From Hippasteria phrygiana (Eukaryota; Echinodermata; Asteroidea; Valvatida; Goniasteridae): DNA of 64,000 nt. The first letter of the stretch is position 1. Every line of letters starts with the position of its first letter. Both the position numbers and the translations under genes were made by a program. Positions 19,372-46,174 of the stretch are shown piece by piece. Below the pieces are notes generated by a model. It saw nothing but the letters and a program-made list of their open reading frames with translations, was not told the origin of the DNA and searched no databases. Location of the stretch: the NCBI GenBank assembly GCA_037893225.1, contig JAZGUH010000371.1:62001-126000 (forward strand), written 5' to 3'.

Positions 19372-19430
19372 AAACATTGAAAGCGTAAAGTTAAACACGT
19401 CTTGTACTGCTTTGCGTTTACAACTACATC

Positions 19431-19436
19431 TTTATT
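19431..19436 (-). promoter_or_regulatory. Polyadenylation signal of peptide gene 1
   Basis: AATAAA on the minus strand, about 690 nt after the stop codon. The same signal is at 39349-39354 in copy 2. The unit boundary lies about 60 bp beyond it. Confidence 0.55.
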
Positions 19437-20123
19437 TCAAGTGAACACCGTGGGCTCATTGCTATTAAAACCGTGTGTGTCAAGTAAAAAGTATAAAGTT
19501 GCCTACGAAATGGTTGGTGTTTAAGAAACTGATAACATCTTACTTTTTGCTACTTACGTCTTACTTGAGCCAAGCGACAATAGAATTTGTTTCCATTTTT
19601 GTGTATGCCATTCAGTTTAGAATGGCCTAAATCCGGTCAGCGACTATACGACCATGGAAAGATCTATTGAGAAAAAAAAAGATACTTCGTAGAAAACCAA
19701 TGACCCCACACTGATATACCAAAGGAAATGTCACTCGCACGATTCTAACTTGTCCGATGAATACACATGAGATTCTTTGCCTCAACTCGGATAGACCATA
19801 TGATAAACATTCATCTGGTTGAAAATCATTATGGTCTGGCCTTAGAATAAATATATTGTAAATCTAGAGTTTAAAGAAAAGGAGAGACGGCGTTGAAACT
19901 TAAAACCTGAAACCTAAAATTAAACTTTAATGTTCATTTTTCAGGAAAAGGTATTTGTGAAAATCGATTACCTACAACATACAGCCCAAGACAGACATAC
20001 AGGCCAAAATACGTACACTAGAATGCGACTGATGAAACTACGGATAAAAATTAACTTGTTGGTGTGGTCTTGTTATCGCAGATATACATGCATCGGTGAT
20101 CGCACTCGTCCGAATCCATCTCG

Positions 20124-23100
20124 TTACTTTCGTGCCCAATCGCAGTAGGGCCCGTACTCTCCGTCAAGACATGGGGTACCAGCCGGGCACGTACCCAATC
20201 CGCAAGTTACGTCTGTGAAATGCAAGCAGTTTTGAAACCATGGACATGTTACTAAACACACTAGTAGAAATATTGATGATTAATAAATTGCACGAATTCT
20301 TTTGTTTGATCACAACTAAAAAAGTACAAGGTTTTGCAATGTCCATCCTTTTGGTAAATGCTCCTCAGATTTCATTTCTAGCTATACCAACTTGAGGTCA
20401 TTTTAGAAACGCTACGAATTATGCATTTCGGTAGTAGTGTGGGGAAGGGAGAAAACGACATAGGAAAGAGCGCCTTTATTTATACAATCGGGCGAGTTCC
20501 CATGTGGTTTAACCTGCTTCATACAATACATGTACGATGATCACTCCAAGGCGGTCCACGTTTTACACTCTGGTCACGTGGGTGAAAAAGGTTTACTGGC
20601 CACGCCAAAGCCAAACCCTCCATGGGAAGTAACTTCCACAAACTGCTCACCTTTCTGGCGTTTAAGTTCGTGCAGTTTGTTGCGTACCTCAATCAGCAAC
20701 TCCCGCAGAGATTCTGCAGAGACGAGACGAAAAATATACCAAATTTCATGGAATTATTGGTTTGGCCAGGAATTACACAGGAGTCTAGTCTCCATCTACG
20801 CTTTCTTTGCTAGGCGGCGTTATCGCACGTGAACATGTGGAACTGGATCACTGTGTAACAAGTTGACCTATTACTTTTATGGTCAACAAGGTCCCTCACC
20901 AACTATACTTTTCCCTTTTCTTTACTCCCATTGGACAAAACTTCAGCTCTGTGATAGTGCGCCCTCAGGCGATATAAACCATTGCAATATTGGAAATACG
21001 TGGACGATTTGAGTTTGGTTGAGACCCGTCTTGCCAATGAACAATCTAGTCTGCAAGAAACTATCGATGCCTTAGAACAGTGGTCAGAAAATAGTAATAT
21101 GCGTCTGAACCCTACAAAATGTACTACTATGGAAATTAATTTCATGAAAGAGCCTCCAGCACCACCTGTCTTTTATATTAAAGATAATGCCCTTGAACAA
21201 TCAGAAACTGTTAAATTGTTAGGAGTCCATATACAGCAAGATCTTAAATTGAACACCCATATTAACACAATACTCCAAAGGGCTAATGGTCTATTTCATA
21301 TGCTGCGTGTCTTAAAAAGTCACGGCTTACCAGTTGAAGACCTTATTACTATTTATATAGGGTACCTTCGTCCCCTCTTGGAATATGCAGTCCCTGTTTG
21401 GAATGGTGCAATAACAAAACAAAGATCAATTGGAAAAATACAAAAGCGTGTCCTTAGATTAATCTTGGGTGTTGAATATAATAACTATAAAAGTGCATTA
21501 GATTCGTTTAAATTAGAAACATTGACTGACCGTCGCACGACACTGTGCTCTAGATTTGCTAGGGATTTGATGACAAATGAGTATATGTCACATCTTATTA
21601 TACCACAATCTCAAAGTAACCATGTATTACGCCGATCAAAATTATTATCTGAACCAAGATGCAAAACAAATAGGTTCAGAAACAGTGCAATACCTAATTT
21701 AATTCATATAATTACCTCAATGGTTTAAATTGTCTGGTATTACTTGCGGTAGCAGTCTCATCCTTTGTCTTATACTTTACCCTATTCATTAATTTTACCA
21801 CCTTCCATCCCTTTATCTGGTCTCTTTTCTTCCACTTTGTTATAACCTACCCCAACCTATTCCCCTAACACCCCCCCCCCCCCCCAACCTACCCCTCTAA
21901 CCTATCCTTCACCCCTAACCTACCCTCCCCCACTACCCCTAGGCCAAAAAGATAAAATTGTTTGGTTGCCCACACTCCTTCGCCAGTGGGGGGGGGGGGG
22001 GGGGGGGGGGGGGGCGGGCGGAATTTCTTTTCTATTTTTACATTCCCCGGAAGTCCAACTTCAAACCATACACAAAGTAAAACAAAAACACAAATGTTGT
22101 TAGGCCGATAAACAGTTTAATATACGTAATACGGCTGCCTCTTCAGCGATGGCCGCCGGGTCCTTCACTCCATCTGAACATGGAGGAAGAATCCCCCATG
22201 ATCCTAACAACACATTCGAACATACACTTTCAGTTGATGCATTTTTTTGTTTGAATATGTATATTTAATCGTTTGTGTAAATATAAAAAAAAAAATCCAA
22301 ACTAAATATTAAAATATATACCCTTATTGTATTTGTTTAATTTGTTTTATTGTTATCAACCACGTACGAAGTACTATGGGGATGCTAAAAATAGGTAAAC
22401 TTTATACTTGCCTCTTGAAATACAAACAACAAATATTGGAGATTATATATCCATCCCTGACCAATACTTTTTCGGAAGAACGCACAATCAGTTCAATTGT
22501 TATTAAAGAGATTATGTAATCAGAAATGTTGTATTTGGTGTCTTTTGTGTCTCCTGGGAATTTCTTTAAAATCTGTGCTGTTTGTGTGTTTTGGTGCATT
22601 CTGGTGCATGTAAAATTCAATGACCCATGGCAAAATATTGGCGGGACACTGCCATAGCCGTCCCCTCCACAAGAAAATATTGCGGGGACGTGTCCCCCCG
22701 TCCCTCCCATGACAATAGCATAGAGTGTGTGGGGAACTAATAAGGGGGCCCTCTGTCGCATATAGTGCTGGGTATAAACGATGGCACGCATGGGCAAGAA
22801 TCAGAATATTGGGCTCCTGAAATGAAGATCTGGCCGAGTAGTTATTTTTCTCGCCCTCCAAGTACCGCTGTGGCCCGGGTTCGAATCCAAAAAAGGCAGG
22901 CATGTGGATTGGGTTTCCCCAGAACATCATTCTGGGGTTTTCCTCCCAACTCTAAAACTGAAGATTTCTTCGTCTCCTTTCCAGGTTTCTTCAGGCTTTC
23001 GAGCTACATTGCGATATGCACATTTTGTCGAATCCCTAATTTCATGAAAATAACATTAAACAAATTAAATAAACGAGGTTGGACTATCATTAAGTCAATC

Positions 23101-23372
23101 TTGAAGTTACGGGATGTGTCAAATGTTTCGACAGTTATCAAGGAGGGTTGGTTATTTTCCAAGATTTTGCTGATCCTGGCCGATTTTAGTGGGGGAGGGG
23201 GGGGGGGGGGGGGGGGGGGTGAAGTCAGGTGAAATTTCTCCGGAAATAATTAAAAAGCAAAAGTTCCACCCCCCACCCCTGGATGCCACTGCACCATACC
23301 TTTTTCTTGGTAGCCATCACCAAACACAAACCCAATGCACAGAAGAACAACGAGGCAAGTATAGGTCTTCAT
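20124..23372 (-). CDS. Small secreted four-cysteine peptide precursor, gene 1 (three coding exons)
   Basis: Coding exons on the minus strand are 23372-23300, 20713-20651 and 20212-20124 (73, 63 and 89 bp). Both introns are phase 1, and the exons join into exactly 75 codons. Splice sites: a pyrimidine tract plus cgacag before the first exon; G|GTATGG; tcgtctctgcag; AAAG|GTGAGC; atttcacag. Residues 1-18 form a signal peptide (MKTYTCLVVLLCIGFVFG). Residues 25-43 form a charged amphipathic helix ending in Lys-Arg. The last part has four cysteines spaced C-X4-C-X5-C-X8-C (TCGLGTC, GTPCLDGEYGPYCDW). The layout suggests a precursor cut at KR to give a disulfide peptide of about 31 residues. I do not recognise the family; function unknown. 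Intron 2 carries a CR1 fragment and a tRNA-derived SINE. Confidence 0.72.
20975..22740 (+). mobile_element. 5'-truncated CR1-like LINE fragment in intron 2 of gene 1
   Basis: A frame of 248 codons (20982-21728) begins inside the RT at the active site: KYVDDLSLVE, then NMRLNPTKCTTMEI, VKLLGVHI, LRPLLEYAVPVWNG and IQKRVLRLILG. These are the thumb and C-terminal blocks of CR1/jockey-like LINEs. Copy 2 of the host unit lacks it: the match breaks right after ggcgata at 20974. A 3' UTR with C and G runs follows (21880-22015). The 3' limit is approximate. Confidence 0.75.
22824..23075 (+). mobile_element. tRNA-derived SINE, copy in gene 1
   Basis: Box A is TGGCCGAGTAGTT at about 22831 and box B is GGTTCGAATCC at 22878-22888. 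The body includes ttccccagaacatcattctg. The same element lies in the same relative place in copy 2 (42163-42410), so it predates the duplication of the unit. Confidence 0.7.
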
Positions 23373-23434
23373 CTTCAAATAGAACTGTCGAGAAAACAAA
23401 TACAACCCAAACCAAAGATTTCAAACTCTGCTGA

Positions 23435-24101
23435 TAGCCCTAGAAGGACTCCAAGATATGGCGTCCTAGCGCAAAAGACTGCAAAACAGTCCTATGCTAG
23501 AAACCGAGGTTCAAAAATCATACTTTACCTTCATAAATATTCTTAGCATCACCTCCGTCCACAGTTCAACAGCCCATCTCCCCGGTAGGATAGAAATATT
23601 CCTCCAAGAATGTTAAGAACAGGAGATATTTGCGGCGCAAAATCGTCTCCACGCGACGCTGACTTCACAAACAAGAGGAGCAATACCCACATCTTGAACG
23701 TTCATCAACAGAGGGCGCAATTTACAGGCGGTCACCGCGCGCTACCACCACTGATCTCTACACTAGAGATCAGTGGCTACCACCGCGCGCGCGGCAGCCG
23801 TGGCTGTACCGTGCACGGCGACTGTAAATTGATGAACGTTCTAGATGTGGGTATTGCTCCTCTTGTTTGTGAAGTCAGCGTCGCGTGGAGACAATTTTGC
23901 GCCGCAAATATCTCCTGTTCTTAACATTCTTGGAGGAATATTTCTATCCTACCGGGGAGATGGGCTGTTGAACTGTGGACAGAGATGATGCCAAAAATAT
24001 TTAATATGCAGGTTGTGCTTTTTGAACCTCGGTTTCTAGCATAGGAATGTTTTGCAGTCTTGTGCGCTAGGACGCCATATCATGGCGTCCTTCTAGGGCT
24101 A
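23435..24101. mobile_element. 667-bp fold-back transposon in intron 1 of gene 1
   Basis: The ends are TAGCCCTAGAAGG and CCTTCTAGGGCTA. The arms are about 300 bp each with a short GC-rich centre (near 23745-23815) that holds a small palindrome. Copy 2 is empty at the matching site (about 43066-43078). The flanks share ctgctga (23428-23434 and 24104-24110), consistent with a hAT-like 8-bp duplication that is slightly eroded. Confidence 0.82.
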
Positions 24102-24400
24102 TACTGCTGAATAACCACGAAATTCGCCAACCAGGGGAAATGTCATAACCAAAAAAGTAATCACAAACCAACAGTATATACGGCACATTCGGCCATTTCA
24201 CATGCTCATTTCCGTAGCATTCGGTATTCAAAAAAGCTTTATTCTGGAGTTGGGCCAAATTCTTTGGCTTTTGCTAGTCGCATATTCCAGAACAAAATGA
24301 CGGAAAAGGGTTTTGATTTTGAACCCCATAATAGAAGGACGGGAACAGAAAATCTGTATACAGGCACCGTATGACAAAACTATAATTCCACACTACTTAC

Positions 24401-24480
24401 TGTTGGAGATTCGCTGCCTCTAAACGTTGTACAGCTGTCGTGAAATCGTCTTGCTACCTTGAAGGTCAATAGAACGAATG
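24401..24480 (-). other. Non-coding first exon of peptide gene 1
   Basis: The exon ends in tctccaaca followed by GTAAGTAGTG, a strong splice donor at 24400. The 5' limit is inferred from the TATA box about 30 nt upstream. The next exon starts at 23384 and holds 12 nt of leader before the ATG. The intron between them hosts the fold-back element. Confidence 0.55.
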
Positions 24481-24503
24481 AGTCGACACGTTTCCAAAGC
24501 ACG

Positions 24504-24511
24504 TTTTTATA
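24504..24511 (-). promoter_or_regulatory. TATA box of peptide gene 1
   Basis: TATAAAAA on the minus strand in the context gttctataaaaacgtgc. The same sequence is kept in gene 2 at 43464-43471. Confidence 0.6.
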
Positions 24512-26318
24512 GAACGACCGCACCCATGGTCTACGGAGACCTAGAAGTGACCTCTAACAGCTCTTGTGATAATTACTCGGTAATTGCCGCCATCTCACAC
24601 GCGTAAGACATCGGCATCATGTATGTATGAATGAAACTCGGGATTAGGAGAGTTTGAAATTAATATCGTCTTCTTCCTAATTATTTAACATCAAAAATCT
24701 CAGGACCCACAAAGTCATATGTCACATAGAGAGCTCCGTCCTTATCTTCACAATGATAAAGCTCCATTTAAACCTCTATTTTCAAAAGACCAGCCCATTT
24801 GTAAAAAGGGGTGGTAGGCCGTAAAGTTGCGGCCATCAATACCCAGCAGAAGTTTGATAACAAAACATAATAAACTCCCATCGCGTTAATAGGCAAAATT
24901 TGATTATTTTCTAAAGTGCAGTATACCTCGATCTTTGAAAAATAAAGGAACTTATCAACCAAAAGTTATGGCAAACAAAAAGCCCACCGTCCAGCTCCTT
25001 GGAAAATCCAAAGTTTAACGGGTGATAGGACAGGTAATGATTAGGATTATTCAGTCGTATAAGCATAATCAACCAGGCATGTCTCTCCAGTTCTTTTCTG
25101 CTTTTAGCTTTGTCATTGTCAGAGCATGGATGAAGTTGGCCTTTCATCTCACGCTGTGCGTGTTTCAATGGTTTTGGGGCTCCAGTTTGATTTACAGTTT
25201 GCTTTAATAGCACTTTTCATTTGCCCAGAGGTCGCTGTGTCGTTTCTGCCTAGCAATACATTTGAAGCAAGATATGGGACGGAGGGAACTCCTCCCCCCC
25301 CCTCCTCTTTTGTGTTGGTAATTGTCTTCCTGGAATCTCAGGAATTCCTTTCAGATATCCGTGGGGGGGGGGGGGGGGGGGGGGGTGTTAGGTAAATACT
25401 CTGGATTGTGTATATTGTATAGGGACAAGAGGGGGTACCCCTTGGGTCACATATCGTGCCGGGTATAAATGATTCATTGTGCCAAGGGGTAAGTTGGATA
25501 TAGGATTTGCATATTAACGCCTGAGCTTTCGAATTACGTAGGCAAGTGTATAGCAAATCGTGTATAGACCTTTTTACCCACGTGACTAGATGTGAAATGT
25601 AAATAAACCACAACGTGTGGACGCATTGAACTAATCATCCTACATGTATCGGGGCAGGTTAAACTATGTGCGCGCACACAGCACGCCTGACGTGTTTACT
25701 TGTCTAAAACACTTCATTGAGGCGTCCCGTTCTATTTCTATGGTTCCATATTTTGTTTGGCCTTCATGGAGGGTCGGTCGGTCGAAAAAACACATAAAAT
25801 TCAGGGGTAAAAAAAGTTACATGTTGAACACAAACATAGGCTAAAAATAATAATGCAAAATGTTCACTGTATAACTGTCTTGTTTTGAGTTAGCTTCTAT
25901 TTCCATGATTATACAATACATTTTTAATATAAGTTAATGAACGAGATATAAAAACCTGTCATGTTTTTGCTGTAAACACGTTTTGCATCCTGGAATGTGC
26001 CGTATGTGCCGTATTTCTAAATAAACATATAGCATTAAATAGAACAAAATGCCTAACAAACTTGTACAAATTTGCCCGAAACCCCTTGATATTGTTTCAT
26101 GCTGGAGCACACTTCCTGTTCACTGAAAATACATTAAAAACAAAAACCCATCTCTGGCAACTTTTCTGGCAACTTTTGGCGTGAGTAAAACGAAATAAAC
26201 AATTTCTAAATAATCTTCTGTTTTGCTATAGGAATACGCCTTTTCTATATGCTCAGCCTGAAGCACACCTTTTGTGCAATATATTTAAATAATAAAAAAA
26301 TAAAACAATCTCTGGCAA

Positions 26319-29300
26319 TTATGCTGACTATGACCTACCGTTCATACTGCAAACGGATGCATCAGGAGTAGGACTAGGAGCTGTTCTTAGCCAGATACAA
26401 AATGGAACCGAGAGGGTAGTTGCTTACATCAGCAATGGGCTTAACCCTGCAAAGTCCCGCTACCCCGCACACAAGAGAGAGTTCCTGGCAATGAAGTGGG
26501 CCATAACGGACAAGCTGGGAGAGACTACCTTCTGGGTAACAAGTTCACAGTTCTGACCGACAATAACCCTCTTCTCTACGTCACCACATCCGCTAAAGGG
26601 TCCGTCCATAAAGTACGTACGCATGAAATGCCGACTTTTTGGACCCCCCCCCCACTGTACGCATGGCATACGCAGTGGCTCAAACACCCCCCCTCCCCCC
26701 TGTACGCATACACATTCCATATCTCTTTTTTACTTCTCAGACTACCCTATTCTAGCATTATTAAACGTCACAGTACACCTGCTGTAATAGTATGATTCGC
26801 ATGTCGCATCCAAAGTCTGAAATATATCACAAAATGTTGACAGAAAAAATATGCATTTTTATTAACGGACCTGGAAATGATTGAACAGTGATATATTTTG
26901 AACCAAAACAGCTGTCAATGATGACATGAACCAAACAAGGGAAAAAATACCCTGATACACTATTTTTTGCATAGTTTGCTCTTGACGTTTCATGAGTGGT
27001 TTATTGAGATAGTAAATAACGCTTTTCATAAAAATATGTGTTTGAACAAGAGGCAGTTGATATACAAGACGTATATCTTTTCTTTTCTTTTTTTACCTCC
27101 AGTACAAGAGCGATTTTGGACAGCACGCGGGTGAAATTGATACAAGTACATGTACACCTGTACGTTTCCGGTGTACACTGCCGGTTTATAAAGCAGTCTT
27201 TTTGTTGCGGTCTAAAAATAGGCCGGAGTTGGCTGGCAGTGGCGCTGGGAAGACTAATTTACTTTTGGTTGGGGTGAAGGGCACTGTGTTATAACTGTTT
27301 TTTGATGCACAAAAGCTGGTCCTGGTAGTTATTTATATGAGATAGCACATTGATTTCATGACAATTCATTAAAAGCAAATTGTCGGTTGCGTACGGTACG
27401 CATTGGCTTGGACCCCCCCCCCCCCCCTCCCTCCTGTACGCATGGTGTACGCAATGTCAACAACCCCCCCCCCCCCCCTTCGTGCGTACGTACTTTATGG
27501 ACGGCCCCATAACTTGACGCAACGGGTCAAAGAGGGGTTGCAGCTTTATCCCAGTTTGACTTCACAGTAAGGTACAAGCCCGGTAAAAGCAACGCAGCAG
27601 CAGATGCCCTTTCTCGTAAATCACACTCTGACTTCTCACGAACCTCGATGTCCTTTCAGAAAGATGCAATCACGATTCCATCTCATATTGTTCAAGCCAT
27701 CAGTAGCAGTCAACCTCCAGTATCGCTTCCCTTTATGGAGCCACCCACTGCCCGATGTGACGTCATAACGCAAAGCCACACTCCAGTTGCTGTAAATGAG
27801 CTACCTCGAGTCTCACACAAGGACTTGATGTCAGCACAAAGAACTAATCCAGACATCTCCAGAGCAATTTACTATTTGGAGAATAGCAGAAAACCAACTC
27901 CATCAGAGAGAACCTACGAACGTCCTGAATGTCTTCGCTATACTTGCGGCAGTGGGAAAGGCTGCAGATGAGAGATGGCGCACTGTATCGAGTGAGAAAG
28001 ACATCTGATGGGTCTAGTTCATACCAACTAGCTCTCCCTCAGCAGTACAAGTCCACTGTCATTAAAGGTCTACACGATGACTTCGGCCACCTATATAGGC
28101 TATGACAGAACTTTAGATCTGGCGAGAAACCGCTTCTTCTGGCCTAAAATGGCAAAAGACATCCAATTTTGGAGTGAAGGGTGTAAAAGATGCTGTCTCA
28201 GAAAGACTCCATCTACTAAAACCAGAGTGCCCTTGGTCAATATCAACACCAGCGAGCCAATGGAACTGCTGTGTATTGACTACCTGAAACTTGAGCGAAG
28301 AAAGGAAGGTTATGAAAACATCTTGGCTATAACCGACCATTTTACCAAGTACGCGCAGGCCTTCCCGACCCGCGACCAGAAAGCCGACACAGTAGCAAAA
28401 GTCCTGTGGGAGAAGATCATACAGAACTACGGCTTCCCTGTTCGAATACACTCCGACCAAGGTAGAAACTTTGAAAGCCACCTCATCAAGGAACTCTGCA
28501 AAATCTCAGGAATCAAAAAGAGCCGTACAAGTCCATACCATCCAAAAGGAAACGGTCTCACAGAACGGTTCAACCAAACTCTCCTCAACATGCTTGGAAC
28601 ACTAGAGAAAGTCCAAAAGAAAGACTGGACGCAGTACGTTGGAGTAATGACGCATGCGTACAACTCAACTCGCCATGACTCAACAGGATATGCCCCATTT
28701 TATCTTATGTTTGGTCGACATCCAAACTTACCTGTAGATCTTATGTTTGGTCTGAAGGCAAATGCACAAGAAGCACCCGGCTACGACGAATACACAGAAC
28801 GACTGAGGGATAGACTTCAAGGAGCCTACAAGAAAGTCACTGACCTGGTGAGACAGGCGAAAGCTAAACAGAAACGTTTGTACGACAGAGGTACCCAAGT
28901 AGCTACTATACGTCCAGGGGACAGGGTTCTTATTCAGAACAAACATCTAATTGGTACCAGCAAAGAGCTGATCGATGGGAGCCTCAGCCTTACGTCGTAA
29001 TTTCCAAACACCCAGACATACCTATGTACACCGTCCGCTCCATTGACGATGACAAAGAAAGGACTGTGCACAGAACCCTCTTGACACCATGCATGTTTCT
29101 CCCCGTGGAAGAGGAAAACAAGATGGCAGATGAAATCTGAAAAGCAAAAATCTGTGAAGGCATAGACCAGGCTGATATCACCAACAGCATGCACATCCCA
29201 TCTCTCACCGCCTCGTCCCAGACCAACCAGAACTCGAAAACCGATCGATCGACTAAGCTATGATTTCCTTGGCCAGACAAAACAGCATCGAGTTAAACCG
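26319..29300 (+). pseudogene. Ty3/gypsy pol fragment: RNase H and integrase
   Basis: The RNase H part reads LQTDASGVGLGAVLSQ, YPAHKREFLAMKWAI and VLTDNNPLLYVTTSAK, is broken by a MITE at 26598-27508, and resumes as LSQFDFTVRYKPGKSNAAAD with DALSR. The integrase is largely in one frame (28077-29000). It has a GCKRCC zinc-binding cysteine pair, and the catalytic D, D and E in CIDYLKLE, HSDQGRNFES and NGLTERFNQTL. The C-terminal RPGDRVLIQNKH region and a following VVISKHPDIPMYTVRSID stretch run to about 29140. Frameshifts lie near 26515, 27945, 28090 and 28975. Protease, gag and most of RT are absent, and the left end abuts repeat unit 1. It is a dead fragment. Confidence 0.88.
26598..27508. mobile_element. 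TIR transposon, copy 2 (about 911 bp), inserted in gypsy RNase H
   Basis: The ends gggtccgtccataaagtacg and ggacggcccc match copy 1 at 13084-13912, in the opposite orientation. The interior also matches, for example agctggtcctggtagttatt and the gtacgcat motifs beside C runs. It splits the gypsy codons between TSAK and LDATGQ, so it landed after the gypsy element did. Confidence 0.85.
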
Positions 29301-29460
29301 TTAATGTCAGATCAGGAAAAGCTCAACGCTGGTAGAAACTGTTTGAGAAATGGAAGGAACCTTCAATGGCGAAGACAAGAAGAAAGGCTTGTCTTAGACT
29401 TGTACAAGAACACAGTCCCATCTAACTTTCCCATGCACTTTAACTATCATTGTAAACACA

Positions 29461-29866
29461 TGTAGTGTAAATTGTGTAAATATTCAGTTTGTTTATGTTG
29501 TTTCACGCGTTGAGAAATATTGTTACTCTCACTTGATCAAGAGTTAAATATAATTCGTAATGTGTCTAGATATTGAGACATAGCTTGGAAAGTTTCAATT
29601 AAGAGATTTGGAAGACAATAGTTATTTTATAAACAAACAAATAGGAAGGTAATCGTATATAGCTTTCTATTTTGGTGTAAACTTTGTATTTAAGTGACAG
29701 TATTTCAGCCAATATTAATTGTGATTTGTTGAGATTTCTCTGTTAATTTGTGTTCTATTTCGATTTATGGAATACTCCCTTCTTTAAATTTACTTAAGAC
29801 CCGAAGAAAGTGTGCCGGAGTTCTCCTTTCAGGTGTAGAATAGTCCCGCGCACGGTCGACGCTACA
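29461..29866 (+). repeat. LTR of a Ty3/gypsy-type element
   Basis: The segment begins TGTAGTG and ends GCTACA, giving TGTAG...CTACA inverted termini. It is followed directly by TTGGAGGCAGCGGTGA (29867-29882), which looks like a primer-binding site. This makes it a 5' LTR for the gag-like frame downstream. No matching 3' LTR was found at 33642. Confidence 0.65.
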
Positions 29867-29926: not shown

Positions 29927-32380
29927 ATGAATACATCGGGTTGGGGTAGTCTGGTGTCTGACTCGCCACACGGCGCGGACACAGACTGGGATACAGCTCC
30001 ACACAACGCAGGCCAACCGGGAGATAAGAATGGCAGACCGTTCGTTACCTTGAGCGAGTTGGAATCCTTCTTGAGGGATAATCAAGGGAGTCTTCCTCGG
30101 GATAAGAGGGAGACTGGGGGGTCACCGGGATCGGAATCTCTCATGTAGGAGGACGGGGGGAATAAGAAGCCAGAGATTGTAGATCAGAGAGGGCGAATTC
30201 GTTACACCCCATGTTGCATTTGCATCGATTCCCCCAAGACTAGTTATGAGTCCCTCAGTGGGCCATCCCACGCCGCCGACGTCGGGGTGACAGGCGCTCC
30301 GTTCCACCCGGAACGTTGCCGAGTCGCACCGGCCGGTGTGGCGGGGACGGTGCTTCACTGTGGGACACCCCACAACCCTTGTCCCGGCGTGCAGGACGCC
30401 GGGCCCCCCGAGGGGCCGCCCTGCGCTGCGCGCGGCGACGGGGCAAACGCTGCGTTCCACACGGAACGCCGCCGAGCCGCGTTCGCCGGGGCAGCGGGGG
30501 CGGAGCCTCGTGTGGAGGTGGCCTGTGAGTTTCGCACCAGTATGCCCAGCGGGGGACACCAGGGGGGACCGCCCCGCGCTGGGTACGGCGGCGTGGCGGA
30601 CACGCCGTTCCATACGGAACGCGGTCGAGCCGCGTCTGCAGACGCAGCGGGGGCGGGGGTTCGTCCGGAGACACCCCACATTTACTACACCGGCGTGAGT
30701 ACCAGGATCCACGAGGAACCAACCCCCAGGGCAGACACTGACGCAACGGGAACAATACCCCACACGGGGATGCCCCATCCTACATGCCCCACGACGGCCA
30801 CAGTAGAGCCCCCTCAACGGTGCCAGTGTGGCCAATCTCCTAGCGTGGCGACCCCCGCCCCCCAACCGGAGCCAATCCGCACGGGAGTCTATGGAGGAGA
30901 GCCAATCCGCGTGGGAGTCAATGGCGCGGAGGCAATCCGCACGGGAGTCTATGGAGGAGAGCCAATCCGCGTGGGAGTCAATGGCGCGGAGGCAATCCGC
31001 ACGGGAGTCTATGGAGGAGAGCCAATCCGCGTGGGAGTCAATGGCGCGGAGGCAATCCGCACGGGAGTCTATGGAGGAGAGCCAATCCGCGTGGGAGTCA
31101 ATGGGACGGAGGCAATCCGCACGGGAGTCTATGGAGGAGAGCCAATCCGCGTGGGAGTCAATGGTGCGGAGGCAATCCGCACGGGAGTCTATGGAGGAGA
31201 AACAATCCGCGTGGGAGTCAATGGTGCGGAGGCAACCGCACGGGAGTCTATGGAGGAGAGCCAATCCGCGTGGGAGTCAATGGTGCGGAGGCAATCCGCA
31301 CGGGAGTCTACGGAGTGAGACGGGCCGGTCGGGAGGAGAGACCCGGTAGGACCGAAGCACCCTCCACCACCACGGGGGCGCAGACTACCCCTGGTACCCA
31401 CGGTGCCGCCGGGCCGGCGGGGGAAGTCACACCGCCGCCCAGGACGAGAAGGGAGGCAGCGGGACCTGGGCATCCCGACCCGGGGAGTCGGAGGCCAGTG
31501 ATGCTTCCCGACAGGTTCGACGGGGGCTCGTCGTGGTCCGACTACTTGATCCATTTCGAGAGTGTTGCGGCGGTCAACCATTGGAGCGAGGCCGAGAAAG
31601 CAATGTTCATGGCTTCCCATTTGAGGGGCACGGCCCGGGAGGAGGTGCTTGCGGATATGGAGCCGGAGAGGAATATTCCTCCCTCCTCGAGAATTTCGGT
31701 TCGGGGTGGCCGCCCAGATCCCATTGCACCGGCCGCAGTTGTCTACGCGCGTGAGAGGCCGCGGTGAGTCACTTGGTAGCTTGGGACAATCAATTCGGCG
31801 GTTAGTCAACCAGAGCTACCCGAAGCTACCCACACAGGTTCGCAAAGATCTGGCGGTGGAGGCCTTTCGGAACGCACTGGGGAATGAACAGTTGCAATTC
31901 CACATCTTCTCCAGGAAAGCGACGACATTGACCGAGGCAGTCACCCTTGCGGCCGAGATGGAGGCCTTTCTCGAGTCACAGGCGCACAGGAAAGGGAGGC
32001 CAGGGACCAAGGACGTTCGGCTGATAGCCCAACCTCCAGCCGAGGAACACAAACCGGCTGCCGGGATCAGGTACGTGCAGACCGCCCGCCCCCCAGTGGA
32101 GTGCTACCGGTGTCACGAATTCGGACACATCTGGCGGTACTGCCCTAGGCGGAGGTCGGCTCCCGACCGGCAACGGGGACTGACAGGAGCAATGCCGAGA
32201 CGCCAGGACCCAAGCGGAGAGCCGGCTGCTCAGGCCAGACCGATGGTCGCAAGGGTGCAGGTGATGAAGAGGATGGGCGACGTCACGTACCGGGTCCAGA
32301 AGTCCCTCAGGGCTAAAGCCAAGGTGGTCCGCTACAACCGGCTGAAGCCATACCGGGGCGACGCCGACGTGGACTGGTGA
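29927..32380 (+). pseudogene. Gypsy gag-like polyprotein joined to an integrase tail, pol deleted
   Basis: The frame starts at ATG 29927 and is open to about 31235 apart from one TAG (30146-30148). A 1-nt loss in a minisatellite unit shifts it, and a second shift lies near 31700. Parts in order: an acidic N-terminus; three degenerate repeats of about 50 residues (PFHPERCRVA, AFHTERRRAA, PFHTERGRAA); a 20-residue tandem repeat; a capsid-like block (LPDRFDGGSSWSDYLIHFES, LRGTAREEVL); and a CCHC knuckle (CYRCHEFGHIWRYC). About 30 codons later comes GDVTYRVQKSLRAKAKVV with YNRLKPY, the typical extreme C-terminus of gypsy integrase. So protease, RT, RNase H and the integrase core are missing. It can be at most a non-autonomous element. 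Confidence 0.72.
30871..31317. repeat. 60-bp minisatellite, about 7 copies, inside the gag-like frame
   Basis: The units are 60 bp and themselves dimeric, with halves ccaatccgcgtgggagtcaa and gcaatccgcacgggagtcta. One unit (31201-31259) is 59 bp. Because 60 is a multiple of 3 and no stops occur, several frames on both strands are open here, which creates long spurious ORFs. Confidence 0.92.
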
Positions 32381-35586: not shown

Positions 35587-35764
35587 AGGGCCGGTCACAC
35601 TGGCCGCGATAACGAAGACGATAACGAAAACGGTGAGAATAAACGGCATTGATTGGTGGAATTGTCGTGCGGTAATACGCGCGCGTTCCATCCACCAATA
35701 GGGAGCGTTTATTCGCATAGTTTTCGTTTTTGTTATCGTTATCGTGGCCAGTGTGACCGGCCCT
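35587..35764. mobile_element. 178-bp hairpin MITE
   Basis: The ends agggccggtcacactggcc and ggccagtgtgaccggccct are inverted repeats, continued by imperfect pairing of cgataacgaaaac with its complement. It sits inside a second MITE whose end motif (gttcatactt) is seen on both sides. Confidence 0.82.
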
Positions 35765-36599
35765 TTCGCGCACCAAGGGCGAATAATTCGCAGCGCGAGG
35801 GGACGAATTAATTCTTCGCGAAAATGACGTTCATACTTTTGCGAATCGTTTACTGCGAAGTTCACCATGTTGCCGGTAGAGCAAAATAAATTGGTTAGTG
35901 TTGCCCTTCTGCTACGTCGCAAGAAAAATAGTAAAAAGCGATCGATTTATGTTCGTAGAATAAACCAATTGCGACCACTTAAGTAGCTCCTCGTTCGGGA
36001 GATGATGCTGGCAGACCACAGTTTGTTTTTCAGCTCCTTCCGAATGAAGGTTCACAATAGGTTGTGCTCTCGTTGGGGGTGGACGTCTTTATATTTTGCT
36101 CTCGTCTTTTTACTTCGTTCTCGTTTTAACTGTGGCGTCGTCTCATTTAGTTTATTTATTTAGTCTATTTATTTAGTCTATTTGGTGTTTTTTACTGTAT
36201 TCTGCAACTTTGTGTTCGGCCCATCTTATCCTGACTTCAACGATTTGTCACGTTTGGTGGGAAAACAAGCAGTTAGGAAGGAACTCGGCAGGGACTACGT
36301 GCACCTTCTAAAACGCGGGAATCGCCATCTTGGATTTGATTACGATTTGGTGAACATGGCTGGGACCATCGTGGATTTGTGTGTGTGTTGTGGATTTGTT
36401 TGACAGCATCGCTGAATATTTTTAAAGTCTTCACCAAACTGTAATTCCATTCCAGTTTTATTCGTGATTGACTGCCATGATCATGATGATTGCCATGAAC
36501 TTGATGAAGTTGACATTCACCATTTTAAAATAGTGCTGAACACTTTTATAATTTTACTGGCAGCATTTTGTTTCAGGATTAATGTTTAAAATTTTGAAC

Positions 36600-39291
36600 T
36601 GATTTTTACAATGGCTACCTTCCATGAAACTAGGTACATTCGAAGTCAAAAGAAAATGAGGAAGCCTTCACGAGGAATGCTTTTTACATTTCATTGGGTT
36701 CTGTTAATGTACTCCATGTGTCATCTTGCCAGAAACCTCCCAAAAGCAGCACATATAATGCTCAGATTCACAAGGATATTGGAACTGGTCTTAAATTAGG
36801 GGAAGATGTCTGCATCAGGGAAAATAAAACGTTATATGCACACACCATCGTGCAGGCAGTGTTCAAAGCTCATCCAAGAACAGTTCTTTTACTGGCAAGG
36901 TTGTTGGCTGACCCAAGCTTTTGTTTGCAGTCAGCATAATTGTCATCACCAAGAAGGACATGTGATAAGAAATGTGTGATTTTATTGACCATGATTATTA
37001 GTGGCGATATAGAACCAAATCCAGGTCCAAGCTCCAAAAATCAGAACCAGTGTGATCTATGTGGGATCGTCGTCAAACAGAGGGATAGAGCCATTTTTTG
37101 TGAGGATTGCAATAAATGGAAACATGCAAAGTGTGAAAACATAACAGCATTCCAGTATAAGAAGCTTCAGAAAAGCACTGAACCACGGTATTGCAGTGTG
37201 TGTTGCAGCCCTTGTGGGGTATGTGGAAGGAATGAACTAAATGGGGATTCTGCAATTCTATGCGACAGGTGTGAAAGATGGGTGCATTCAGACTGTGCAG
37301 GTGTTTCTCAGTCATGTCAGTCATCTACAAACCTGTGATGAATTGTGGAATTGTTTAAATTGTGAACTCCCAAATTTCTCAGAATCATTTTTTTAAACTT
37401 ATGAAAGCGAAGCTCAGTCAACTGCATCTTTATCAGAGGATGACACACTGGATTGGGGTAAAAAGAAGAGCAATAAATCACGTCTGCGATGTCTCCTGAT
37501 AAATTGTCAGAGCATTCGAGGAACAGTGGCTGACTTGCAGGCCGTTATTCAAGTGTACAAACCAGACATCATCTGTGTGACAGAATCATGGCTCAACCAG
37601 TCAGTAAAAAGTGCAGAAATTTTCCCAACGAACTACAAAGTTTTTCGTAGAGATAGGGATACAAACACGGTAGGAGGGGGAGTTTTTCAAGCAGTTAGCA
37701 GTGAGCTAGTGTCAAATGAACTCCCTGGTGTTAGAAGCAATTGTGAATTGATTTGGACAGAAATAAAGCAAACAACAGGCAAGACGCTCTTTACAGGAAC
37801 ATACTACAGATCACCAGATGATCACAGGGGTACTCAAATGAAGGAACTAATCAAATCTGTGGCTGGAATGAAAGAGAAACTAGACTCGAACACGGTCATC
37901 ATTCTTAGAGATTGTATTTTGCCCAATATAAACTGGGACGACTACACTACTGAAAGTCAAGGCCAAAATAGAACAGTTGGTGACAAATTTCTTAATATGG
38001 TTACTGAATTTGGCTTTAAGCAATGTGTCAAAGAACCAACTAGGACTCAACGTAACACTCAAAATATTCTGGATCTTGTCCTCACAAACAATCCTAATGT
38101 CATCCATGATGTTAAGGTAGTTGAAGGGATCTCGGACCACGACATTGTTTAGGTAGATATTGACATGAAACCCAAGCCCAGAAGGAAGGTCTATACCTGC
38201 GACAGAAAGCAAATACTGAGGGCATAATAGCTGATGTGTACACTCACCTGCCAACCTACATGGAAGTAACTCAGGGAATTTGTCCAGACGGAAAATGGAG
38301 ACACATACATCAAATGTTGGAGGACCTCATGGAAAAGCATGTACCTTACAAATTCACCACAAGTAGGCCTAATCTACCTTGGTTTAATAATTCACTGAAA
38401 AAGGAATACAAAAGGAAGAGGCGTCTTTATAAAAAGGCGAAAAAGTCAAGTAAGGAACAGGACTGGGTGGCCTTTAAACAAGCTCGCAAAGATATGAAAA
38501 ACAGTCTTCTTAAGGCAAGACATGCGTACATCAATTCATACCTTCAGGAAAACTTCAAAACAAACCTCAAAGCTTTCTGGTCATATATAAAGAGCTTTCA
38601 AAAGGAAAATGTAGGAGCTTCTGACCTGAAAGTCCATGGAAACATCTTAAGTGACAGCAAGGCTGAGGCTCTCAACCATCAGTTTCAGAGTGTTTTCACC
38701 TCCGTATCCGAAGGAAATGATGCTAAATTAGAGGGCGACTCATACAATGAAATATCAAAACTACAGATCACTGTCAAGGGTGTTGAAAAACAACTCACTG
38801 AATTAGTTTTAACTAAAGCATCGGGACCAGATGAGGTACCACCTTGGTTATTTAAACTAGCAGCAAAACCTTTGGCCCCTATATCCTCCAGGATCTGTTT
38901 CAGAGTTCAGTCGATAGTGGGATGGTACCAACTGCTTGGAAGACGGCTAATGTCACTGCAATCTTTAAGGCAGTGGTACGGTCCGAACCAGCAAATTATC
39001 GGCCGGTGTCTCTTACCTCTGTCACATGTAAGGTTCTCGAGCATGTAATTCTTAGTCATATATAATGAAACATCTTGATAAGTACAAGATTCTCACAGAT
39101 TGTCAACATGGATTCCGCTCAAGGAGATCTACAGAAACCCAACTTATCACTACACTATACATGACATCGGACAAGCCATTGACAACAGGCAGACAGTGGA
39201 TGTAGCGGTCCTGGATTTCTCAAAAGCTTTCGACAAAGTTTCACATAAATTGCTCCTTAATAAGCTTCAACATTATGGTATAGTAGTTCGA
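36600..39291 (+). pseudogene. CR1-like LINE with 2A-like motif, PHD-type fingers, APE and partial RT
   Basis: The frames are decayed but ordered. 36611-36939 is an N-terminal region with a frameshift and a stop at 36937. 36940-37338 has SGDIEPNPGP, a D-x-E-x-NPGP 2A-like motif, then two cysteine-rich fingers (CDLCGIVVKQRDRAIFCEDC, CGVCGRNELNGDSAILCDRC). 37480-38230 is an APE endonuclease (INCQSIRG, VTESWLN, ISDHDIV), but the usual GDFN is RDCI, so a catalytic Asn is lost. 38236-39290 is RT up to VLDFSKAFDKVSH. The element stops dead at 39291, where repeat unit 2 begins, so its 3' half is missing. It cannot be active. Confidence 0.8.
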
Positions 39292-39348
39292 ACATTGAAA
39301 GCGTAAAGTTAAACACGTCTTGTACTGCTTTGCGTTTACAACTACATC

Positions 39349-39354
39349 TTTATT
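39349..39354 (-). promoter_or_regulatory. Polyadenylation signal of peptide gene 2
   Basis: AATAAA on the minus strand, about 710 nt after the stop codon and about 60 bp inside the unit boundary. The position matches gene 1. Confidence 0.55.
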
Positions 39355-40062
39355 TCAAGTTAACACCGTCGGCCCATTGCTATTAAAACCGTGTGTGCCA
39401 AGTAAAGCTAGGGCTCTTCATAAGCTGACAAGTATAAGGTTGCATACGAAATGGTTGGTGTTAAGAAACTGATAACATCTTATTTTTTGCTACTTACGTC
39501 TTACTTGAGCCAAGCGACAATAGAAAATTGTTTGCCATTGTGTTTATGCCATTCAGTTTAGAAAAGCCTAAATCCGGTCAGCGACTATACGACCATGGAA
39601 ATAACTATTGAAAAAAAGAAGATACTTCGTAGAAAACCAATGACCCCGCACTGATATACCAAAGGAAATGTCACTCGCACGATTCTAACTTGTCCGATGA
39701 ATACACATGAGATTCTTTGCCTCAACTCGGAAAGACCATGATAAACATTCATCTGGTTGGAAATCGTTATGGCCTGGCCTTAGAATAAATATATTGTAAA
39801 TCTAGAGTAAAAAAAAAAAAAGAGAGACGGCGTTGAAACTTAAAACCTCAAATTAAACTTTAACGTTCGTTTTTCAGGAAAAAGTATTTGTGAAAATCGA
39901 TTGCCTACAACATACAGCTCAAGACATAAATATTAGGCCAAAATACGTACACTAGAATGCGACTGATGAAACTACGGCGTATAAAAATTAACTGTTGGTG
40001 TGGTCTTGTTATCGCAGATATACATGCATCGTCGGTGATCGCACTCGTCCGATTCCATCTGG

Positions 40063-43005
40063 TTACTTTCGTGCCCAATCGCAGTAGGGTCCGTACTCTC
40101 CGTCAAGACATGGGGTACCAGCCGGGCACGTACTGAATCCGCAAGGTACTCCTGTGAAATGCAAGCAGTTTGTGAAACCATGGACGTGTTACTAAACACA
40201 CAGAAGTAGAAATATTTATAATATATTAATAAATTAGACGAATTCTTTTGTTTGATCACAACTCAAAAAGTACAAGGTTTTGCAATGTTGTCCACCTTTT
40301 GGTAAATGCTCCTCAGATTTCATTTCTAGCTATACTAACTTGAGGTCATTTTAGAAACCCTACGAATTATGTATTTCGGTAGTAGCGTGGGAAGGGAGAA
40401 AACGACATTAGCCTTTTAGGAGGTATGGCGGACACAATAGGAGGGCGCTATTTGATTTGGGTAAACCTTTTGTATGGCACAAAAGGTTTACCCAAATCAA
40501 ATAGCGCCCTCCTATTGTGTCTGCCATACCTCTAAAAGGATAATAGGAAAGAGCGCCTTCATTTAAAAACTAGGACCCAACAACACAGTAGTGGATTCGA
40601 CCGACCCAGATCCGACTCAAGGTGCCTTTTCTTTTGGACACTAGTTGGACAATTTTGGCAAATTATACACCGAACGGTATTGATATTTTTCCAGGAAAAA
40701 GCAAATTCGTTTTTAGTTTGTTTTTCCCGTCATGGATAGAGAACTTGAGATGAAGTCGTGCTTCGCGGAAAATTGCCAAGTCGGCGGATTGACACAAGAT
40801 AGCCATTGATCTATATTGTGTAAATCGACCATTTTGACGTTTCCTATGAAGCACGCTTTCTTTAGTCTACGTTCCCTATAGATCCAGAAACCCCAAGTCA
40901 TAGGCCCTTCACAAAACGTGGCTTCGCTTTTGGCTTCCCATAATTTCCGTCCTCCGATTTGGCTACAACTCGGGACCATTTTGCAACATGTAGGCCTAGT
41001 CATTCAAACTTGACGCCCTATGTAGCGTAAATGTTCAGTCACTATGAAATACAGGCTCATTAGTATTGCGCATGCCCGAGTGAAGATAAGTGGCCAGTCG
41101 CGTGAGAGTGTTTAAACAATAACGGGGAAATGAGTGATTTTCCTGGGAGTCGGATATTCATACGACACTGGGACCGCAGCCCTTTTCCATTCAAGTATTC
41201 AAGGCTTCAGGGTGACAATGGAGCTCGATAATTAAGACCTTTTTTCACGTGTCGTAAACCACATTGTACCGGATAGTGATGCTAATGCTGTGCTTTTTTG
41301 AATAAACCAGTCGAGCGTGCCGCGAGTTCCCACGTGGTTTAACCTGCTTCATACAATACATGTACGATGATCACTCCAAGGCGGTCCACATTTTACGCTC
41401 TGGTCACGTGGGCGAAAATGGTTTACAGGCCACGCCCAAGCCAAACCCTCCATGGGAAGTTAATTCCACAAACTGCTCACCTTCCTGGCGTTTAAGTTCT
41501 TGCAGTTTGTTGCGCACCTCAATCAGCAACTCCCGCAGAGATTCTGCAGAGACGAGACGAAAAAAACCAAATTACATGAAATTATTGGTTTGGCCAGGAA
41601 TTACACAGGACTCTAGTCTCCATCTACGTTTTCTTGGCTAGGCGGCGTTATCGCACGTGAACATGTGGAACTGGATTATATTGTGTAACCAGTTGACCTA
41701 TTACTTTTACGGTCAACAAGGTCCCTCACCACTATACTTTTCCCTCTTCATTACTCCCATTGGACAAAACTTCAGCTCTGTGATAGCGTGCCCTCGGGCG
41801 ATAGCACTCAATGTAAACCTATCATATCCTATGCAGAGCGCTATGCAATTTTTTTGCACGTTGCACAATCAGCATGGCTAATGCCGAGCTACTTATTCAT
41901 GGTTTTGTGACAAATTCCATATATTGTGTGCACTTGCGTTTTTGAAGACTCTTGCGAAACATTGCCCTTCGTCATCTTGCGATCTCAAAATTTACCAGAC
42001 AGCGTTAAGGAATGGCATTGGATTATCCAGTTTTAGCATGGAGGAATGGCCCAGGCCCCAGAAACGTATAGTCGTATAGCGTGTGCAGCTATTGTCAAAT
42101 ACGGCACAACTTGCAAAATAGCGATGGCATGGGCAAGAATCAGAATCTTGGGCTTCTGAAATGAAGATCTGGCAGAGTGGTTATTTTTCTCGCCCTCCAA
42201 GTATACCACTGTGGCCCGGGTTCGAATCCAAAGAAGGCCGACATGTGGATTGGGTTTCCCCCAGAACATCATTCTGGGGTTTTCCTCCCAACTCTAAAAC
42301 TGAAGATTTCTTCGTCTCCTTCCTTGCACGTTTCTTCGGGCTTTCGAGCTACATTGCGATATGCACATGTCGAATCCCTGGTTTTATGAAAATATAATAA
42401 AAAAAATAAAGGTTGGACTATCATTAAGTAAATCTTGAAGTTACGGGATGTGTCAATGTTTCGACAGTTATCAAGGAGGGTTGGTTATTTTCCAAGATTT
42501 TGCTGATCCTGGCCGATGTTGGTGGGGGGGGGGGGGGGGGGGGGGGGGGGGGTGAAGCAGTGGCGCACCCAGGATTTGACTTTGGGGGCTCACCAATTTT
42601 TTTTAAAGAATGTTGCCCCAGAATTTTTTGCACCGGGGGGGGGTTATGGACTCTTTTGACGTTGGTGGCGCCATCTACCCCCATTATACTTCTACACCCC
42701 CCTTATACTACTCGGAAATAGGCCACTTACATATCACCGCGGTCAATTCCTTGGACACAAAAAAAAACCTTTTGGGGGGGTGCTCAAGCTGCTCAAGCCG
42801 CTCAAGCACCCCGAGCCCCCCCCCCCCCCCCCCCTTGGGTGCGCCACTCGGGTGAAGTCAAGTAAAATCTTTTCGGAAATAATTAAAGAGCAAAAGTTCC
42901 ACCCCCCACCCCTGGATGCCACTGCACCATACCTTTTTCTTGGTAGCCATCACCAAACACAAACCCAATGCACAGAAGAACAACGAGGCAAGTATAGGTC
43001 TTCAT
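40063..43005 (-). CDS. Small secreted four-cysteine peptide precursor, gene 2 (three coding exons)
   Basis: Coding exons on the minus strand are 43005-42933, 41543-41481 and 40151-40063, with the same sizes, phases and splice signals as gene 1. They join into 74 codons plus stop with no frameshift. The signal-peptide exon is identical in all 73 bases to gene 1. The helix exon reads SLRELLIEVRNKLQELKR, and the last exon PCGFSTCPAG then GTPCLDGEYGPYCDW. Across 75 codons the copies differ in 8, of which 6 change the residue (positions 39, 45, 46, 48, 51 and 52). Five of the six fall at the start of the cysteine peptide. Cleavage after Lys-Arg (42-43) would give an N-terminal Gln. Function unknown; antimicrobial, venom-like and peptide-hormone precursors share this layout. 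Confidence 0.74.
40412..40539. mobile_element. 128-bp near-perfect hairpin MITE in intron 3 of gene 2
   Basis: Arms of about 60 nt (40412-40472 and 40480-40539) pair almost perfectly around a 7-nt loop. Copy 1 lacks the hairpin (aacgacataggaaagagcgc at about 20456). A transcript would form a pre-miRNA-like stem. Confidence 0.85.
42163..42410 (+). mobile_element. tRNA-derived SINE, copy in gene 2
   Basis: Box A is TGGCAGAGTGGTT at 42170 and box B is GGTTCGAATCC at 42219-42229, with the same body as 22824-23075. Confidence 0.72.
42558..42849. mobile_element. 292-bp hAT-like element in intron 2 of gene 2
   Basis: The ends are CAGTGGCGCACCCAGG and its inverted copy ttgggtgcgccactc. Flanks GGGTGAAG at 42550-42557 and 42850-42857 form an 8-bp duplication. 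Copy 1 has one GGGTGAAG (23217-23224) and no insert. Confidence 0.87.
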
Positions 43006-43361
43006 CTTCAAATAGAACTGTCGAGAAAACAAATACAACCCAAACCAAAGATTTCAAATTCACTACTGCTGAATAACCACGAAATTCGCCAACCAGAGGA
43101 AATGTCATAACCAAAAAGGTAATCACAAACCAATAGTATATACGGCACATTCGGCCATGGCACATGCTAATTTCCGTAGCATTCGGTATTCGAAAAACTT
43201 TCTTCTGTAGTTGGGCCAAATTCTTTGGCTTTTGCTAGTCGAATATTCCAGAACAAAATGACGGGAAAAGGTTTTGATTTTGAACCCCATAATAGAAGGA
43301 CGGGAACAGAAAATCTGTATACAGGCACTGTATGACAAAACTATAATTCCACACTACTTAC

Positions 43362-43440
43362 CGTTAGAGATTCGCTGCCTCTAGAGATTGCACAGCTGTC
43401 GTGAATCGTCTTGCTACCTTGAAGGTCAATAGAACGAATG
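43362..43440 (-). other. Non-coding first exon of peptide gene 2
   Basis: The exon ends in tctctaacg followed by GTAAGTAGTG at 43361. Its start is inferred from the TATA box. The following exon begins at 43017 after ttgttttctcgacag. Confidence 0.55.
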
Positions 43441-43463
43441 AGTGGACACATTTCCAAAGCACG

Positions 43464-43471
43464 TTTTTATA
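43464..43471 (-). promoter_or_regulatory. TATA box of peptide gene 2
   Basis: TATAAAAA on the minus strand, about 25-30 nt upstream of the inferred first exon. Confidence 0.6.
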
Positions 43472-46174
43472 GAACGACCGCACCCATGGTCTACGGAGAC
43501 CTAGAAGTGACATCTGACAGCTCTTGTGATAATTAATCGCTGATTACCGCCATCTCACACGTGTAAGACTTCGGCATCATGTCTGAATGAAACTCGGGAT
43601 TAGGAGAGTTTGAAATTAATATCGTCTTCTTCCTAATTATTTAAAATAAAAAATCTCAGGACCCACGAAGTCAGATGTCACATAGAGAGCTCCGTCCTTA
43701 TCTTCACAACGATAAAGCTCCATTTAAACCTCTATTTTCAAAAGACCTCCTGCCCCATATCGTGCTGGGTATAACATTTGAAGCAAGATATTGGACGGAG
43801 GGAACTCCTCCCCCCCCCCCCCCCCCCCCCCACCTCCTCTTTTGTGTTGGTAATTGTCTTCTTGGAATCTCAGGAATTCCTTTCAGATATCTGGGGGAGG
43901 GGTTAGGTAACAATACTCTGGAGTGTGTATATTGTGTAGGGACAAGAGGGGGTCCCATACGTGCCGGGTATAAATCATTCATTGTGCCAAGGGGTGAAGT
44001 TGGATATAGGATTTGCATATTAAAGCTTGAGCTTTTATATCACACAGGCAAGTGTATAGCAAATCGTGTATAGACCTTTTCACCCACGTGACCAGATGTG
44101 AAATGTAAAAAATCCACAACGTGTGGACAGCCTTGAACTAATCATCCTACATGCCAGGTTAAACTATGTGCGCGCACACAGCACGCCTGACTTGTTTGCT
44201 TGACTAAAACACTTCATTAGCGCGTCCCTTTCTATTTCTATGGTTCCCATATTTTTGTTGGCCTTCATGGAGGGTAGGTCGGTCGGGAAAAAAATGTAAT
44301 AAAAATAGAACAAAATGCCTAACAAACTTGTACAAATTTGCCCGAGACTCCTTGCTATTTTTTCATGCTGGAGCACACTTCCTGTTCACTGAAAATAAAT
44401 TAAAGACAAAAACCCATCTCTGGCAACTTTTCTGGCAACTTTTGGCATTAGTAAAACGAAATAAACAATTTCTAAATAATCTTCTGTTTTGCTATAGGAA
44501 CTTGAATACGCCTTTTCTATGCTCAGCCTGAAGCACACCTTTTGTGCAATATTTTTAGATGATAAGAAAATAAAATAATCTCTGGCAAATTTCGCGACAC
44601 CTCTGATAAGTATATACACTCTGTTTCTTCGGACACATTTTGGATCCACGTTGGTCGAATGATAGCTCTACATCGAGACTGCACAATGCAGCTTACAGAA
44701 TGTTATTTTCTTTCCGTGGACGCCGCGGTAATGCACATAATGAGCGTATTCGAACCCCCATTCTCGTGTTGACTGAACACGAGAACGGAGTATCGAATGT
44801 GGCGAACCAGCACGCAAAAACCGTTCGCGAACAAGATTTTCACTCCCCGCTATCTGACAGCGCCGGACGCGTTGTTTTCGTATTCCAGAATAGCCAGTTA
44901 GGTATCTCGAAGGTCAAAGGTTTTTTCAGGATAAAATTGCTGACGTAAAGTTACGCGACTTTACGCGATGATACACGAAAGCCCATTCTGATTGAATAAG
45001 CCAGTTCGGTATTTCAACTACACGCATGTGCACAATTTAATGACATTTTATCCCGAATGACCCGCGTGACCTAACTCGCGCGTGTCACAGCATTTACACC
45101 CTGCATTTGTACACGGCGCCCGCTAGTGTTTACAGAAAGTTGAATCAAGGAGTGACCTTCGTGACCTTAGTGCGAAACGTGCTAAAAATCGCAAAGCTAG
45201 GGAGTCCAACAAATTAGCGAGTGAGGTAAATAATTTATATCGGCCGCGACGAGTGTAGCACAAGTTCTTGCGATCTAGATCTAGCATCGCAGAATTTCGA
45301 ATATGTCACCCGCTCAAACTTCGTAATAAACGGGTCGAGTTTATACATATTTGAAAGAATAAATCTAAAATATTTCCTGATCTATATACAACATCTGATC
45401 GTATTTTCCTAGGAAAATCAGAATATATTGAATTTTACTGCGTATTTCCACGATTTTGCCTGCCCATGTACACAATTCATGTATAGCGTATTGACTACAC
45501 ACGTAACATTGACCGCCGGATCAGAATAATTAAGTGACTCGCCTTACGAATGACGCAAAATTGCGACGAATAATTAGGCTAAATAGATAAGTTATGTACC
45601 AAAATAATCCTGAATAAATAAGCTTCCTAGACAACTATTCATTAATTACCAATTTGAGTGAAAATGTTAAAAAAAACAAGCAATATTTTCTTACCTTTCA
45701 AGAAATCGCCTTTCAACTCGCCACTGAGAATAAAAACAATACAACCCACGCAATTTATTAGGGGGGACAGTTGTCCAGGCGGCCCCGTATTTTTGCTGTC
45801 TCCTGAACTTTTCAGATCAAGCCTGCCGATAGGTAAAACCGTAATACACTGACATTGCGAAAAAGTAGATATTTTTTTCTAGATTTTTAGCATGCCTATT
45901 AATGGCGATCGGTAGCTAGGGAGTCAGCTGGATTTGACACGACGTCATCGTGTAGATTTTATTGCGGGCCAATCAGCGATGCGTGTTAGCTTTGTTGTGG
46001 CGCTGTGGGCCACTGTGCAGGGTGAATGAGCAGTGTAAATCCTGAGGTAGATACGATTTGAAGCTTTGCATGGTGGGTGCGATATGAGAGAGACTGGGAT
46101 TGCGGGTAACACCATGTGAAATATATCTCTTCTAGGAAGAAGTGTGGTTCTGAAAAGAACCGGGGTGAGTGTGT

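Follow-up and report, generated by a model that had tools for sequence, protein, structure and literature searches.

Split genes for a putative secreted KARTESH-like peptide with four cysteines in a ten-copy array of a probable sea-star genome

The KARTESH peptides KASH1 and KASH2 of the sea star Asterias rubens (PDB 8V2M/8V2U) come from a precursor that consists of a signal peptide, an acidic region, a dibasic convertase site and a four-cysteine peptide of 28-30 residues, and they rise in coelomic fluid after injury (PMC11891777). Synthetic KASH2 pairs CysI with CysIII and CysII with CysIV, forms a disulfide-directed hairpin and leaves the growth of human fibroblasts unaffected; an amidation signal (Gly-Lys/Arg) is present in KASH2 and absent from KASH1 (PMC11891777). 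Beyond the Asterias rubens genome, the authors of the KASH2 study could not retrieve KASH2 homologues in usable form, although their introduction states that KARTESH and CHUPA have homologues in echinoderms (PMC11891777). The consensus of the DDH motif is given as C-X5-19-C-X2-(G/P)-X2-C-X6-19-C (PMC10779620). Mini-granulin/paragranulin half-domains and granulin-fold conotoxins are hairpins similar in size to the peptide considered here, with two or three disulfides (PMC7463432, PMC10133702, PMC11035057).

The locus lies in a window of 64,000 bp (the whole stretch of DNA analysed; C371:62001-126000 of a 944-Mb assembly), in which two minus-strand genes had been predicted, one in each of two large repeat units (Table 1). 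The exons and junctions can be read as predicted in both copies: coding exons of 73, 63 and 89 nt are joined across GT/AG sites (minus-strand reading) at 23300/20713 and 20651/20212 in gene 1, and at 42933/41543 and 41481/40151 in gene 2, both coding introns are phase 1, and the product is 74 residues long in each. The largest coding exon thus stays below 90 bp, in keeping with the statement that open-frame searches miss these genes. The two products differ at six residues, all within residues 39-52, and share in their mature region the expected cysteine spacing C-X4-C-X5-C-X8-C. Upstream, a TATAAAA box stands 110-111 nt before the GTAAGT donor of a non-coding leader exon, and the acceptor lies 12 nt ahead of the ATG. 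Intron lengths differ between gene 1 and gene 2 (leader intron, 1016 and 344 nt; coding intron 1, 2586 and 1389 nt; coding intron 2, 438 and 1329 nt). A near-perfect inverted repeat (foldback) occupies 40412-40539 within intron 2 of gene 2; no such repeat was noted in the corresponding intron of gene 1.

Table 1. Positions of gene features and repeat units in the window.
Feature	Position	Strand	Remark
Gene 1 TATA box (TATAAAA)	24505..24511	-	Motif in 10/10 complete copies
Gene 1 non-coding leader exon	24401..24480	-	Donor GTAAGT at 24400, kept in 10/10; start approximate, transcription start inferred
Gene 1 exon 1: 12 nt 5' UTR, ATG at 23372, signal peptide	23300..23384	-	Sequence reading
Gene 1 exon 2: charged propeptide, end ...LKRQK	20651..20713	-	Sequence reading
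Gene 1 exon 3, coding sequence of the four-cysteine peptide with its stop codon	20124..20212	-	Sequence reading
Gene 1 poly(A)-signal-like ATTAAA	19926..19931	-	ATTAAA in 4/10 copies
Gene 2 TATA box (TATAAAA)	43465..43471	-	Motif in 10/10 complete copies
Gene 2 non-coding leader exon	43362..43440	-	Donor GTAAGT at 43361; start approximate
Gene 2 exon 1: 12 nt 5' UTR, ATG at 43005, signal peptide	42933..43017	-	Sequence reading
Gene 2 exon 2: propeptide	41481..41543	-	Sequence reading
Gene 2 exon 3, coding sequence of the four-cysteine peptide with its stop codon	40063..40151	-	Sequence reading
Repeat unit 1, with transposon insertions	19373..27509	.	Self-BLAST
Repeat unit 2, with transposon insertions	39291..46008	.	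Self-BLAST

The genes are more than the pair originally proposed. Ten complete copies were read from two contigs: C371 carries eight, and the other two lie at the end of C378. The final 546 bases of C378 are identical to the first 546 of C371, so the contigs probably join into a single array of ~230 kb. For the same reason a copy at the beginning of C371 that consists of exon 3 alone was counted as the same gene as copy K. The two window copies have the opposite orientation to the remaining eight. Every copy has an unbroken 74-codon frame with GT/AG at both coding introns, free of stops and frameshifts, and every copy has the four cysteines; together the ten amount to five distinct coding sequences and four distinct proteins. 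The TATA box, the leader donor (110-111 nt downstream of it) and the acceptor before the ATG, predicted to be kept, are found in all ten complete copies, which in the leader region are 93.5-100% identical to gene 1. The poly(A) signal does not follow this pattern. A search for eight hexamers in the first 330 nt past the stop gave ATTAAA in four copies, including gene 1, and GTTAAA in six, including gene 2, contrary to the claim that the signal is kept in both. Similarly, the Lys-Arg said to precede the peptide is present in both window copies and in seven of the ten overall, but three copies have Lys-Gly. A search of the whole assembly with the mature peptide (E up to 10) found no locus outside the array. 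Both split genes look real and belong to a ten-copy array in an apparent sea-star genome.

A third, inverted and partial copy of the repeat unit, limited to sequence that lies upstream of the peptide gene, was observed at 11646-15042 (matching 43750-46008 and 25027-27509). Other elements of the window include an apparently non-LTR-retrotransposon-like stretch at 4851-9416, in which open frames of 320, 366 and 833 residues follow one another; a 60-bp minisatellite of 7.6 copies at 30867-31320, in a GC-rich (0.64) region where long open frames overlap; and a retroelement-like open reading frame at 36940-37338, with a GDIEPNPGP stretch that presumably corresponds to a viral-type 2A peptide, followed by what seem to be PHD-like zinc-binding cysteines. 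A frame at 47096-47803, reverse-transcriptase-like and GIY-YIG-like, is presumably Penelope-like.

Intronless copies of a beta-1,6-N-acetylglucosaminyltransferase gene (GCNT-like, PF02485) are interspersed in the array: one is open (C371:216020-217453; L034:59-1453), one frameshifted and one interrupted, and two are fragments. The copy at the window's edge (window 1-599 plus C371:61168-62000) has frameshifts near position 124 and near 250-290. Not everything in the array, therefore, is kept, although the glycosyltransferase provides a rough internal contrast and not an exact one, its frame being ~6 times longer than the peptide coding sequence. Among the best 120 of 1564 matches, the open copy is closest to proteins whose shortened name labels read 'Acan' (76%), 'Pati' (66%) and, in fourth place after a match that carries no name, 'As' (64%); fully named matches among these 120 include Acanthaster planci (58%), Patiria miniata (57%) and Asterias amurensis (56%). 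Among the matches listed this neighbor is thus closest to sea-star proteins, which supports, but does not prove, a sea-star origin that depends on this one gene.

The original prediction of a secreted, convertase-type four-cysteine precursor encoded by split genes is supported, as is its placing among marine invertebrates, for which the one neighboring gene points to a sea star. A hydrophobic core follows MKTY (mean hydropathy over nine residues up to 3.29, the signal peptide being judged by hydropathy); the gene 1 propeptide is neutral (charge -0.14 at pH 7, pI 6.78); and the mature peptide is acidic (pI 4.3-4.7). The 31 residues that follow Lys-Arg would make the mature peptide one residue longer than the KARTESH range, unless trailing basic residues are trimmed. 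In single-sequence models, exon 3 of either gene has predicted strands spanning 16-19 and 22-25 (pLDDT 87.9 for gene 1 and 76.6 for gene 2). Searches of family libraries returned no match, Pfam being covered to E 10, and a search of 5.8 billion proteins, which requires shared five-residue words, returned no homologue; nor was a paper describing this gene array found in the open-licence literature. The genes had been called undescribed and their peptide unrecognized: the first stands in so far as the gene copies lack a database match, whereas the type of peptide is known, as KARTESH/KASH2 of Asterias rubens (PMC11891777).

Our preferred reading, to which we assign a probability of roughly 0.6, is that the array encodes a secreted, KASH2-like hairpin peptide with two disulfides that functions in coelomic fluid as a humoral factor in injury or defence. 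The 74-residue precursor would comprise a signal peptide (~18-20 residues), a charge-balanced propeptide ending in LKR and an acidic four-cysteine peptide of ~31 residues. It would be secreted and, in copies that keep Lys-Arg, cleaved after that pair; in the three Lys-Gly copies the peptide could stay joined to its propeptide. By analogy with KASH2, bonds CysI-CysIII and CysII-CysIV would close a small beta-hairpin fold. Action in coelomic fluid, in injury or defence, is a role carried over from KARTESH.

A possible alternative, though we think it unlikely, is that the genes form a family of defence or antimicrobial peptides on which diversifying selection acts, new variants being supplied by the array. 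The presence of ten copies in a single array would suit such a family, as would the placing of variation: eight of the ten variable replacement codons fall within residues 39-57 (P 0.004). Six of the ten, however, set the gene-1 type apart from all other copies and may thus reflect a single event. The five distinct coding sequences differ at ten replacement and three synonymous codons, a mix close to the ~70% nonsynonymous that mutation alone would give; dN/dS among copies is about 1, not confidently above it, and the type of substitution taken alone shows no selection. Furthermore, the mature peptide differs from cationic antimicrobial peptides in being acidic, and its charge argues against a membrane-lytic antimicrobial. 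A variant of the preferred reading joins the two ideas, and is unlikely in its full form: a lineage-specific, ten-gene humoral family of KARTESH-like peptides in which the N-terminal half of the mature region is diversifying, the signal peptide, cysteines and hairpin are nearly fixed, and the Lys-Gly copies have switched to an uncleaved form.

How close the peptide stands to KARTESH was assessed by fold, by sequence and by precursor layout, the sequence comparison being made with KASH2 only. In Foldseek searches KASH2 was ranked first for the gene 1 model (E 1.3, probability 0.23) and second, after a granulin peptide, for the gene 2 model (E 3.6, probability 0.10). Granulin peptides and EGF domains were ranked beside KASH2, with Notch1 EGF12 in the gene 1 list. 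C-P-x-G is a granulin motif, and it is present in the array peptide too; in Notch-type EGF repeats the first four cysteines are likewise spaced C-X4-C-X5-C-X8-C. The array peptide nonetheless departs from both: an EGF-like domain has six cysteines, of which Cys5 and Cys6 are missing here, and a granulin half-domain has six (granulin having six disulfides) against four, with no Pfam hit to EGF and none to granulin up to E 10. Among seven sequence searches of the PDB, one, with the gene 1 core, listed Kartesh-2, in first place (E 1.0 and 1.1), and it was missing from the lists of the other six; 12 of 22 aligned residues are identical. No KASH2 E-value is significant in either the PDB sequence or the Foldseek searches.

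Two further comparisons lean towards similarity. Shuffles with the cysteines held fixed gave, for gene 1, P 0.002-0.004 and, for gene 2, P 0.014-0.019; these values are biased towards the match, since the KASH2 stretch used was residues 2-24 as displayed by the match itself. When this stretch was searched against ~260 kb of array DNA, the four gene-1-type copies of exon 3 came first (E 0.005), followed by five of the six other copies (E 0.07) and then by an unrelated place (E 0.33); exon 3 of copy B was not among the matches listed. KASH2 and the array peptide have in common a second loop of X5, a third loop of X8, and TCG, CPAG, D and YC residues, while the precursors share a signal peptide, a propeptide, a dibasic site (in seven of the ten array copies) and a short four-cysteine mature peptide, each apparently in a sea star. 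Against this, the array peptide lacks the Gly-Lys/Arg amidation signal of KASH2, three of its ten copies have LKG, and its genes form a ten-copy array. Since, in addition, loop 1 falls one residue short of its KASH2 counterpart (X4, not X5) and the propeptide is neutral where the KARTESH region is acidic, the peptide is best called KARTESH-like, not a proven member. The DDH consensus likewise has at least five residues in loop 1, whereas the C-PA-G-TP-C stretch and the X8 loop fit it, with S in place of that G in copy B (PMC10779620).

It is conceivable, if rather unlikely, that the array encodes a real secreted sea-star peptide unrelated to KARTESH, the likeness being a convergence of two-disulfide hairpins such as mini-granulin, half-EGF and DDH. 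The mixed fold lists, the granulin peptide that heads the gene 2 list and PDB E-values for KASH2 that are all at least 1 are what convergence would predict; the shuffles, however, favor residual similarity beyond the cysteines, and both peptides are apparently from sea stars and have similar precursor layouts (PMC11891777). A relationship to KARTESH is thus likely – supported but not proven – from the similarity tests, the shared animal group and the precursor layout together, none of which is decisive alone.

Because the array copies are so alike, open frames alone are weak proof that the genes are maintained. Distinct indels were therefore counted in alignments of the copies (copy K being left out of the exon-2 block, which has nine of the ten rows): the 225 coding columns contain none, compared to 32 in 1372 flanking non-coding columns, where ~5.2 were expected and resampled non-coding blocks reached zero in 0.5% of draws (P ~0.005). 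Variable coding sites number 14 where 24 were expected, and 3% of draws came out as low (P ~0.03). Exon 1 by itself is uninformative on indels, since the 107 non-coding columns around it likewise hold none. An earlier count with wider flanks (75 gap intervals in 1583 core non-coding columns, none in coding sequence) was set aside: some of those flanks are not homologous, with rows down to 71% identity, and the flanks were narrowed for this reason. That the copies are dead or passengers, spread with segmental duplications, their frames mere remnants of recent ancestry, would fit the near-identity of the leader regions, the near-neutral mix of replacement and synonymous codons and the differing poly(A) signals, but is very unlikely given that none of the ten has a stop, a shifted frame or a damaged splice site in its coding part and that coding indels are in deficit while glycosyltransferase copies are partly broken.

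The array genes show how annotation can miss genes of this kind, whose coding exons are all at most 89 nt long. If they are indeed relatives of KARTESH, they would supply that class of peptide with a gene structure, with the four protein variants that occur naturally among the ten genes, and with a genomic address in a second sea star.
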